Below, in pieces: positions 23,550 to 25,714 of a DNA stretch of 63,605 bases (positions are counted from its first letter, which is position 1; every line of letters starts with the position of its first letter). The translations under genes and the position numbers were made by a program. Under the pieces are notes generated by a model. It had not been told where the DNA came from. It ran no database searches and saw nothing but the letters and a program-made list of their open reading frames with translations. This DNA is from an uncultured Blautia sp. (GTDB lineage Bacteria > Bacillota > Clostridia > Lachnospirales > Lachnospiraceae). The DNA lies in the NCBI GenBank assembly GCA_945864225.1, contig CAMBAL010000009.1:1-63605 (forward strand), in the 5' to 3' direction.

Positions 23550-24014
23550 ATGAGAAAAAATAAAATCACTGCGTTGTTGTTATGTGTATGTATGCTGGCG
23601 GCAGGTTCCTCTGTGTCTGCAGAACCGGTAAAGAAAACGGAGACAGCAGAGGAAGAACTTCGTGAGGAAATTGTGGAGTTTGCGGTGCAGTTTGAGGGGA
23701 ATCCTTATGTCTATGGAGGTACCAGTCTGACAGGCGGGGCGGACTGCTCCGGATTTGTGATGTCAGTCTTTCAGGAATTCGGTTATGAGCTTCCGCGGGT
23801 GGCTGCGGATCAGTGCAATTCCTCCACGCAGAAAAGTATAGAGGATATTCAGCCGGCGGATTTGGTCTTTTATGGAAACGGGGGCATCAGTCATGTGGCG
23901 CTGTACATCGGAGATGGCCAGATCATTCATGCCAGCACCTCTGCCAGCGGAATCAAAATTTCCGATTATGATTATGAGACCCCGGTGGCTGTCGGGACAT
24001 ATTTGGAATCATAA
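23550..24014 (+). CDS. Secreted NlpC/P60 cell-wall peptidase
   Basis: A 154-residue exported cysteine peptidase that probably cuts peptidoglycan stem peptides. Residues 1-25 are a signal peptide (basic start, hydrophobic core, cleavage after VSA). The catalytic Cys is C66 in GADCSGFV and the His is H115 in SHVALYIG; a second His lies in IIHAST. It consists of the catalytic domain alone with no binding repeats, so it is one of the shortest forms. AGAGG precedes the ATG. Its promoter carries a palindrome, suggesting repression by an unknown factor. Confidence 0.92.
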   Translation: MRKNKITALLLCVCMLAAGSSVSAEPVKKTETAEEELREEIVEFAVQFEGNPYVYGGTSLTGGADCSGFVMSVFQEFGYELPRVAADQCNSSTQKSIEDIQPADLVFYGNGGISHVALYIGDGQIIHASTSASGIKISDYDYETPVAVGTYLES

Positions 24015-24133
24015 CTATAGAAGGGAACGCAATTATGAGCACAATGTCAGAACGTGCAAAAGTTTATTACCTTTGCTTTTAACATCTGTCTTTGAAGAAA
24101 TTGATCAGCAATTTGTTTTCTCTGAAGTTGCTA

Positions 24134-24162
24134 TTGAACACGCTGAGCTTCTGTGATATTAT
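24134..24162 (+). promoter_or_regulatory. Promoter of a candidate small RNA
   Basis: TTGAAC (24134-24139), a 17-bp gap and TATTAT (24157-24162). It points at the two-way terminator about 50 bp further on, with no gene between. Confidence 0.55.
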
Positions 24163-24167
24163 GAATA

Positions 24168-24264
24168 TAAGGAAAACAACCGCCCACAAGGGGTTGACCT
24201 ATTATAGCGTAACATAGAAAATGCCACCCATTACCGGTCAAAGTATGAGGGTGGTTTTTCTATG
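24168..24264 (+). ncRNA. Candidate antitoxin small RNA
   Basis: A transcript from the promoter at 24134-24162 to the terminator at 24213-24264 would be about 95 nt and has no open frame. It ends in the same terminator stem that would end the facing toxin transcript, so the two RNAs would be complementary over this stem. This is the layout of Fst-type type I toxin-antitoxin pairs. Expression is not shown. Confidence 0.45.
24213..24264. terminator. Two-way terminator between small RNA and toxin gene
   Basis: CATAGAAAATGCCACCC (24213-24229) and GGGTGGTTTTTCTATG (24249-24264) form a long stem with T runs on both strands. It can end transcripts from either side. Confidence 0.75.
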
Positions 24265-24274
24265 CCTTAAAACA

Positions 24275-24379
24275 TTATTTGATAAACGTAAAAACGAATG
24301 TCAGCAATGCTAAAATGAACGTTCCAAAAGCCATCAGGTCTTTAAAATCAAAATGATTTTTGTCCATCAGCACACTCAT
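24275..24379 (-). CDS. Holin-like small toxic peptide
   Basis: A 34-residue peptide: a short polar start MSVLMDKNHFDF, then FKDLMAFGTFILALLTF and a short hydrophobic end closing with a Lys. The line FGTFILALLTF is the hallmark of the small holin-like toxin family found throughout Firmicutes. AGAAAG lies just before the ATG, and a second possible start is Met5. TTGACA (read on the minus strand at 24417-24422) with a weak -10 18 bp on could drive it. It faces the candidate small RNA at 24168-24264, and both would end at the same terminator. Membrane insertion and toxicity are inferred from the family. Confidence 0.7.
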   Translation of the reverse strand: MSVLMDKNHFDFKDLMAFGTFILALLTFVFTFIK

Positions 24380-24521
24380 CTTTCTTGTATATATTTTGGC
24401 AGACACTGAACAAAGTTGTCAATGAATTCTTCCAACTGTTCGCCCAGACAATGTCGAGACTTATCCGGAATTGTAGAATAAAATCGCATTTTAAGCAAAA
24501 TGCACAAAAGAAAACGAAAAA

Positions 24522-24996
24522 TGTGGATTGTGGATAACTTGGTGCAAAAACTATCCACATTAGAAAACCTTGGAAACCCTAGAAAAATCAAGTTATACAC
24601 AAAGTTATCCACATTATCCACAGTGATAACATGTGGATTATTAGATTTACATAATGATATTTTAAACACATGTTCTGGTAAAATGTCCTAAACTGACAAA
24701 ATATGACAGGGATATTAAAAAAATGATTGACTTTTAAAATGTGAAAAAAGTATAGAATATTTTTATCAAACATAAACAATAAGGATTAAAATAATTATAT
24801 TATCAGAATATTAAAGGAAATGTTTAAAGACAGGTTCCAATCCGGAAAAACTTTGCAGAGTGAGCGTTTTGTACAAAATAATGAGCAAATAGGATAAATG
24901 CTGAGATGTAATAAAACTGTAACAAATTGTCATAGTGGAAATGATAAGAAAGTTATACACATATCAAAACAGAAGAAGAGCCTTCCATGTGGATAA
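24522..24996. other. Cluster of DnaA boxes beside AT-rich DNA
   Basis: Perfect TTATCCACA boxes: 24529-24537 (minus), 24605-24613 and 24614-24622 (plus, directly abutting) and 24988-24996 (minus). Single-mismatch boxes: 24551-24559, 24593-24601 and 24953-24961 (plus) and 24632-24640 (minus). A weaker one is at 24522-24530. About 300 bp of very AT-rich sequence (24641-24950) lies between the two groups. This is the make-up of a replication origin or a DnaA-titrating or reactivating site. No dnaA, dnaN or other origin-linked gene is in the window, and gene directions do not flip here, so a control site is more likely than oriC. Confidence 0.75.
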
Positions 24997-25090
24997 TGTA
25001 TTCTCATTTGTCAGATATTCGAATCTGACTTCTGAGAACGGTTCTGCCATGTGGAAAGCTCTTTTTTGGTATACTGCTGATTGCAGTTCC

Positions 25091-25714
25091 CTAAGTGTTT
25101 TGTTTCATCCGCTTGATGACCTTCAGTCTGGTGAATTCCTCACGTTCTTTTTCTTCCAGTGCGTTCTGAATATCTTTGGTGAGTGTTTCGTATCTTGGGA
25201 TGGTGATGTTTTTCAGAGCATTGGCGCGCTTCTGCGTTTTTTTGATATTGGCGGCAAGACGGATAGCGGCATTTTCCACCATGGAGAGCTGAATGGAGAG
25301 CTCTTTGACCTTTTCAAAGGCAGCTTTGGCTTCATCCAGGGACATCTTTGTGCTGTAATAAGCATAGGTGGGTTTGCTGCCTGCTGTTTTGTCATATTCC
25401 ACCAGAGGGATTTCCGTCCCCATGACACTGCGGCTTTTGATGCGGATAGAATCCTCTACAGGAACGGTACAGGCAATCTGTTCTACGAACGCAATCCCAA
25501 TCTCCATGTTGGCTTTCTGCAGTGCTGCATAGGCAGTACGGAATGTGTGATCGATCTGCGTCTGGATATCTTTGGCTTGGTCAATGAGTTCCATCATTTC
25601 CCGGATAAGGATATTTCTCTTCTTATCCATCAGTTCGTAACCCTGACGGGAAAGTGCCAGTGAATTTTTGGCAAGAATCAGGTTTCCTTTGGTAGGAAAG
25701 GTATTCGGATCCAT
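25091..25714 (-). CDS. V-type ATPase subunit D
   Basis: The 207-residue central shaft protein of the V1/A1 part; long coiled-coil helices at both ends turn inside the A3B3 head. The start DPNTFPTKGNLILAKNSL (about residues 2-19) and the final coiled coil KTQKRANALKNITIPRYE are typical. It is the last gene of the nine-gene operon, 117 bp after subunit B. No obvious terminator follows. Confidence 0.95.
   Translation of the reverse strand: MDPNTFPTKGNLILAKNSLALSRQGYELMDKKRNILIREMMELIDQAKDIQTQIDHTFRTAYAALQKANMEIGIAFVEQIACTVPVEDSIRIKSRSVMGTEIPLVEYDKTAGSKPTYAYYSTKMSLDEAKAAFEKVKELSIQLSMVENAAIRLAANIKKTQKRANALKNITIPRYETLTKDIQNALEEKEREEFTRLKVIKRMKQNT

Follow-up and report, generated by a model that had tools for sequence, protein, structure and literature searches.

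A conserved DnaA-box array of fixed spacing in Blautia and other Lachnospiraceae: a candidate locus for chromosomal control of DnaA

The closest described relatives of the locus that we report here are DnaA-box clusters lying outside the replication origin. In Bacillus subtilis, such clusters close to oriC (DBCs) were reportedly described by Okumura et al. in 2012; a DBC of this type is bound by DnaA in vivo, and its loss results in early initiation. In Escherichia coli, DARS sites promote the release of ADP from DnaA. An oriC itself is recognised by a switch of GC skew at the site, by DnaA boxes followed by a GC-cluster and a DnaA-trio, and by the adjoining dnaA and dnaN genes. The literature considered comprises PMC5295017, PMC7561715, PMC6669920, PMC4447404, PMC13220808 and PMC5749712, the DnaA box clusters of the last being those of oriC. 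According to PMC5295017, the B. subtilis DBCs have a strong effect only if all six are removed; this paper and PMC13220808 describe datA as requiring IHF and stimulating ATP hydrolysis. The latter source, a 2026 review, reports that B. subtilis lacks datA and DARS loci and is not known to have, or to lack, regulators that balance ADP-DnaA and ATP-DnaA (PMC13220808). Titles and abstract openings of open-licence PMC papers describe no element such as ours under Lachnospiraceae DnaA boxes, DnaA-LexA-hpf or Gram-positive datA/DARS-like sites; for DnaA or the replication origin of Blautia, the same literature offers, by title and abstract opening, a paper on chromosome folding and prophages.

The element that we describe shares with the B. 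subtilis DBCs dense DnaA boxes outside oriC, location near the origin (for our element, in relatives only) and occurrence in Bacillota; DBCs are thought to lower the level of free DnaA. The two differ in that six DBCs are reported, whereas our element usually forms one strong locus per genome; its sequence conservation, constant box spacing and neighbouring palindrome, features kept throughout a family, may also set it apart. Like E. coli datA, it is a single non-coding locus outside oriC with several DnaA boxes; datA, for its part, needs IHF and promotes the hydrolysis of DnaA-ATP. E. coli DARS1 and DARS2 are likewise non-coding DNA with DnaA boxes, DARS2 binding other proteins as well, but they differ from the element in chromosomal position. 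Relative to DBCs and datA, the element would stand out by its fixed architecture and, possibly, by a second regulator.

The DNA that we analysed (the window) is a stretch of 63,605 nucleotides from an uncultured Blautia sp., contig C9 of a 115-contig draft assembly (G000; 2.67 Mb, 84% complete). A preliminary description had counted four perfect and four near-perfect DnaA boxes within 475 bp, two of them abutting, and our scan re-found these positions: exact boxes (TTATCCACA) at 24529 (minus strand), 24605 (plus), 24614 (plus) and 24988 (minus), and boxes with one mismatch at 24551, 24593, 24632 (minus) and 24953, the pair at 24605 and 24614 being the abutting one. Over the whole window the number of boxes is unremarkable (24 sites with at most one mismatch against 17.7 expected, with 24 reached in 7 of 100 shuffles); it is the clustering that is unusual. 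Among 300 dinucleotide-shuffled versions of the window, no 475-bp stretch held more than two exact boxes or four boxes with at most one mismatch, as compared with the four and eight observed. The assembly as a whole contains 54 exact boxes, and groups of four in close range occur at two places only: the cluster in the window and C33:25339-25545. Contig ends such as C33:27240-27286 carry the adapter-like sequence CTGTCTCTTATACACATCT, which we take to be leftover Nextera adapter, and TTATACACA lies within 40 bp of several contig starts, suggesting that more remnants are present; such remnants give rise to false DnaA boxes in genome counts.

In good agreement with the AT-rich DNA noted earlier between the box groups, the gap from 24641 to 24952 has a GC content of 25% against 45% for the window. 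Similarly, tblastn with the G038 proteins found no homologue of dnaA, dnaN or recF in the window, as had been claimed for dnaA and dnaN. The statement that gene strands do not switch here proved wrong: the cluster sits in a 1,076-bp intergenic gap between convergent genes, nlpC/p60 on the left (plus strand, ending at 24014) and V-ATPase subunit D on the right (minus strand, ending at 25091). Among named proteins, those that best match this subunit D come mostly from Blautia.

Comparison with relatives delimits a conserved non-coding element of ~260 bp on the plus strand (~24485..24745, limits approximate), based on a match to profile R1 at 24495-24695 and on conservation up to a TTGAC block in relatives. 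Read 5' to 3' on the box strand, it comprises TGCACAAA, box b4, an A-rich linker, boxes b3-b2-b1, a reverse box, GATTTACATAA, the palindrome and a TTGAC repeat. Its core is an array of four same-strand boxes (24551-24622) with start-to-start spacings of 42, 12 and 9 bp. We compared 61 elements, that of the window and 60 from family loci picked from the stronger profile matches. Box by box, and with counts that lean towards the genus because the search profile was built mainly from near-genus sequences, at most one mismatch is found in 58 of the 61 for b4 (CTATCCACA, 24551..24559, plus strand, 42 bp upstream of b3), in 44 for b3 (TTATACACA, 24593..24601, plus), in all 61 for b2 (exact, 24605..24613, plus, 12 bp after b3) and in 58 for b1 (exact, 24614..24622, plus, abutting b2). 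The A1 profile consists of 37 sequences that we chose, mainly near the genus. The module alignment used 53 of 60 distinct loci, with rows L134, L150 and L184-L188 omitted; of these, L188 entered A1 later, and true elements may also be present at L184 and L185.

The remaining parts are conserved to different degrees. Upstream of the array, comparison of relatives reveals the block TGCACAAA (24501..24508, plus), followed in many of them by TGTCGAA, which resembles a Spo0A box; this half is not intact in the window. An exact DnaA box at 24529..24537 (minus), found by the scan, is poorly conserved among relatives. Alignment of relatives defines the A-rich linker AAACC..AAAAATCAAG (24565..24592, plus). 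Downstream of b1, a reverse DnaA-like box TAATCCACA (24632..24640, minus) is conserved mainly near the genus and the GATTTACATAA block (24644..24654, plus) only there; we rejected GATTTACATAA as a family-wide motif, its exact copies numbering only 5 over ~1.17 Mb of family loci. A LexA-box-like palindrome, AAACACATGTTCTG (24664..24677, plus), follows ~42 bp after the boxes, and of the 55 among 61 elements that have its consensus GAACNNNNGTTTTG with at most two mismatches, 52 have it 40-45 bp after b1. The last part, TTGAC-N9-GTGAA (24727..24745, plus), is an inverted repeat, TTGAC-N9-GTCAA, in several relatives, and it is also -35-like. The extra boxes near atpD vary in position among relatives, and we left the outlying TTATACACA box (24953..24961, plus) and the outlying exact box (24988..24996, minus) out of the conserved core.

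A search for the three-box module with at most two mismatches found it in 53 of 64 genomes of the genus (apparently Blautia) and in 32 of the 34 more complete ones, at one place in 46 genomes and at two in 7; the reversed control pattern was found in none of the 64. Absence of the boxes from close relatives, which the preliminary description had named as grounds against its reading, is not what we observe, an outcome that favours the site. In 11 of the 64 genomes there is no module match, and in at least two others, G057 and G031, the module matches have one or two mismatches and lack the other blocks. Across the family, sampled at one genome per genus and including that of the window, 138 of 150 genomes have a profile match at E ≤ 1e-3, a threshold at which weak matches can be other box arrays, e.g. 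beside dnaA in G199 or at a Mur ligase-dnaD cluster in the window's own genome (24 bits). At E ≤ 1e-10, 110 of the 149 other family genomes match, and three have a second match at E ≤ 1e-8; 12 of the 150 have no match, and some of the unmatched genomes of genus and family are incomplete drafts. Judged by sequence similarity, the array recurs across the family, usually as one strong copy per genome.

At the level of the class, a match at 1e-4 is present in 99 of 195 genomes; nine of these belong to the family, and the matches outside it are mostly partial and weak. Among 15 class loci inspected (L223-L237), the matched stretch was not displayed in two and one is the dnaA-dnaN interval of G374; in three genomes outside the family (G256, G299 and G282) the boxes are accompanied by a perfect AAAACANNTGTTTTG palindrome. 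An extension of the element beyond the family seems likely. At these three loci (L232, L234 and L236) the module is followed by the perfect palindrome CAAAACANNTGTTTTG, with one to three copies per genome. In a search of mobile DNA no plasmid matched, and five 'phage' records did. Four of them, MT837833.1, MT838852.1, MT835545.1 and MT838478.1 (L364, L365, L366 and L368), are unverified Bacteriophage sp. GenBank records in which NlpC or TrxB adjoins the element, which suggests that these portions are contaminating bacterial DNA; the fifth has boxes with only a weak profile match (26 bits). We rejected a mobile origin for the element.

We located dnaA in six genomes of the genus and 14 others of the family, and in 19 of these 20 it is found elsewhere than the element, in some cases on a different contig, the sole exception being the weak match beside dnaA itself in G199. 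Where the two share a contig (15 family genomes), the interval between them is 36-516 kb in 14 and reaches 985 kb in G092. This distance is at most 14.7% of the contig in all 13 genomes for which it was computed, with approximate dnaA start positions; the distance count omits G199 and four genomes with separate contigs (G104, G136, G157 and G171). The element is oriented along the replication fork in 14 of 15 genomes, with the origin taken at dnaA and G092 again the exception, and GC skew on its strand is positive at 54 of the 61 family loci (seven are not co-oriented), although such counts of position and orientation are inflated because the genomes are related, and shared synteny could explain much of them. 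In another set, of 61 rows, 32 have at least 3 kb on both sides, and in 31 of these 32 the element is on the leading-type strand. In 12 single-contig genomes of other families that have a match, 14 of 17 weak matches are co-oriented (genome lengths rounded). Note that origin proximity comes from relatives only, since the window's own assembly, an 84% complete draft, yielded no dnaA contig and no DnaA C-terminal domain.

GC skew (G minus C), which the preliminary description had proposed as a check, does not switch in the window: each of the 64 bins, 1 kb long at most, has a positive value. In G038, sampled skew goes from -0.13 just before dnaA to +0.20 just after it, a clear switch of sign. 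Around the element of this genome it is noisy: from 4.40 to 4.56 Mb it varies between -0.22 and +0.11, with values of ~0 over 9 kb on one side and of -0.12 to -0.22 over 9 kb on the other; this is a local change in the size of the skew with no clear switch of sign, and we read it as reflecting gene content rather than an origin.

The genes flanking the element vary, those for V-ATPase, hpf and mecA being examples. Within 2.6 kb on the left, 43 of 61 loci have nlpC/p60 and/or trxB in the same direction. Within 2.6 kb on the right, there is hpf (plus) in 26, mecA (minus) in 11, atpD (minus) in five and only nlpC (minus) in two, with none of these in 17; the hpf, mecA and trxB families were assigned by a Pfam check of one protein each. 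The comparison of synteny in relatives, also proposed earlier, gives a conserved, origin-near element in changing company. As the element usually follows the end of the left gene and persists through the changes on the right, it is probably not simply the promoter of one gene. At some mecA loci at least, a small gene lies between the element and mecA. At four loci with mecA on the right (L254, L255, L257 and L301), TTTGTCGAAAAAA, which we take to resemble a Spo0A box, and TTGAC-N9-GTCAA follow the element, and in several of these the small gene before mecA looks to us like DUF1858.

Our preferred reading, to which we assign a probability of roughly 0.6, is that the element is an origin-proximal chromosomal control locus that binds and ties up DnaA and delays re-initiation, perhaps together with a second regulator; as such, it would probably help to set when copying of the chromosome starts, resembling the B. 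subtilis DBCs and, in function, E. coli datA. The preliminary description had weighed a DnaA-titrating or regulating site against a displaced origin. The former option gains support from conservation in the genus and family, the usual single strong copy and the location near the origin of relatives; the latter does not hold up. From the sequence and spacing of the element, its conservation, and its position and orientation in relatives, we infer DnaA binding, an oligomer, an effect on initiation and a second factor, as follows. DnaA would load on the abutting pair b1-b2 and spread along one face of the helix, reaching b3 over 12 bp and b4 over 42 bp, or some four helical turns, and the resulting oligomer would be like that assembled where oriC unwinds. 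Fixed, helically phased spacing suggests such a defined oligomer rather than a loose sink. By eye, no GC-cluster and DnaA-trio follow b1, unlike in the dnaA-dnaN intervals of relatives, and for this reason the oligomer would be expected to tie up or inactivate DnaA without opening the DNA. Since the element is close to oriC, it would be copied early after initiation, and copying would double its capacity, lower the level of free active DnaA and discourage an early second start. Finally, at the palindrome, which follows at a near-constant distance of ~42 bp, a second protein (perhaps LexA) may reinforce or loosen the complex under stress.

The likeness to oriC concerns the boxes. Adjacent same-strand boxes are shared with the unwinding part of oriC in the dnaA-dnaN interval of Clostridia, and that of G374, the genes of which were confirmed by tblastn, has the same 12-9 box triple as the element, placed before a DnaA-trio. 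The difference is that in oriC a GC-rich stretch and the DnaA-trio come after the boxes, whereas neither was seen after those of the element. Local alignments against the dnaA-dnaN intervals of five genomes were not significant beyond the boxes, with scores reached by 15, 24, 155, 124 and 280 of 300 shuffles, and we rejected derivation of the element from oriC.

The identity of the second protein is suggested by the palindrome. Upstream of uvrB in the same genome is AGAACAAACGTTCTG, and boxes of the form [GA]AACNNNNGTTY lie upstream of lexA at 9 of 13 loci of relatives; a LexA-type box was found upstream of lexA at none of four loci examined in the genus Blautia. Set against the LexA operator type GAACNNNNGTTC/T, the element palindrome, with 55 of 61 copies within two mismatches of GAACNNNNGTTTTG and AAAC on one side of the window copy, appears to fit loosely. 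A search of 10 genomes found the strict palindrome AAAACANNTGTTTTG in 7, with 11 copies in all, and four of these copies are the element; we rejected it as a marker of SOS genes, since by eye none of the other seven copies lies beside an obvious SOS gene. Given this result and the lexA result in Blautia, LexA is only a lead: the palindrome-binding protein is perhaps LexA.

A more ambitious version, which we hold tentatively and consider rather doubtful, is that the element is a Clostridia-wide, Gram-positive counterpart of datA and DARS, in which a fixed DnaA platform would alter the nucleotide state or oligomer of DnaA and be gated by a LexA-like damage repressor. Were such a damage-gated platform real, the start of replication would be checked by damage signalling directly at a cis-acting DNA site. 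In either version, the element, deeply conserved in a major gut family, offers a defined sequence with which to test whether Gram-positive bacteria use a datA/DARS-like site and whether damage signalling feeds into DnaA control, and it may serve as a near-origin sequence marker in draft genomes.

Two further explanations seem to us unlikely, and to a similar degree. The element could be the regulatory region of a transcript, with DnaA and a LexA-like repressor acting at a TTGAC promoter that served hpf ancestrally or serves a small RNA now. The frequent downstream hpf (26 of 61 family loci, and also G282 of another family) and the conserved, -35-like TTGAC block keep this explanation alive through a possible ancestral hpf link, but the element persists at loci, the window among them, whose right-hand gene is a convergent atpD, and at loci with other genes there; by eye, the downstream sequences displayed have no conserved ORF, and the next TATAAT-like sequence is ~20 bp from TTGAC, longer than usual. 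Rfam likewise has no match there at gathering score, where its hits are tRNA only; a permissive search of 24000-25150 returned only eukaryotic miRNA and snoRNA families, all below gathering. In the other explanation, the element would act as DARS does, a DnaA assembly of fixed geometry releasing ADP and promoting initiation. The fixed spacing, which favours a specific oligomer over loose titration, and the usual single strong copy would suit this role, but relatives carry the element close to the origin, in contrast to the E. coli map positions of DARS1 (17.5 min) and DARS2 (64 min) given in PMC5295017.

That the DNA is passive, its boxes kept for nucleoid organisation or segregation with initiation unaffected, is highly improbable: although deletions of the B. 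subtilis clusters act strongly only together (PMC5295017), conservation at the level of single bases and fixed spacing over many genera argue against it. Weakest is the reading as an origin, whether a displaced or additional one of the chromosome or one that a plasmid or phage has left behind there, which has origin-like box density beside AT-rich DNA and the local skew change of G038 in its favour and is very unlikely given the positive skew throughout the window, dnaA located elsewhere in 19 of 20 relatives, the clear switch at dnaA in G038, the lack of a plasmid match or of significant oriC similarity outside the boxes, and the bacterial DNA in four of the five 'phage' matches.

The window's own genome has a second dense DnaA-box cluster, at C33:25339-25590 (L012), with a murC-like Mur ligase gene on one side and dnaD/dnaI-like genes on the other. 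It has several boxes abutting in a row and a group spaced 44-9-12, resembling the element in its density, this spacing and the presence of GATTGACATAA, and it differs in its place upstream of the dnaD/dnaI-like genes and in its weak profile match. That place makes autoregulation plausible, and the cluster may autoregulate these helicase-loader genes. L134 of G037 looks similar to this cluster. The same genome also encodes, at C37:15749-16480 (L013), a 243-aa protein without the DnaA C-terminal domain, the best Pfam match of which is the DnaA AAA+ domain (PF00308, 8.5e-22); its size and make-up recall what we take to be those of E. coli Hda.
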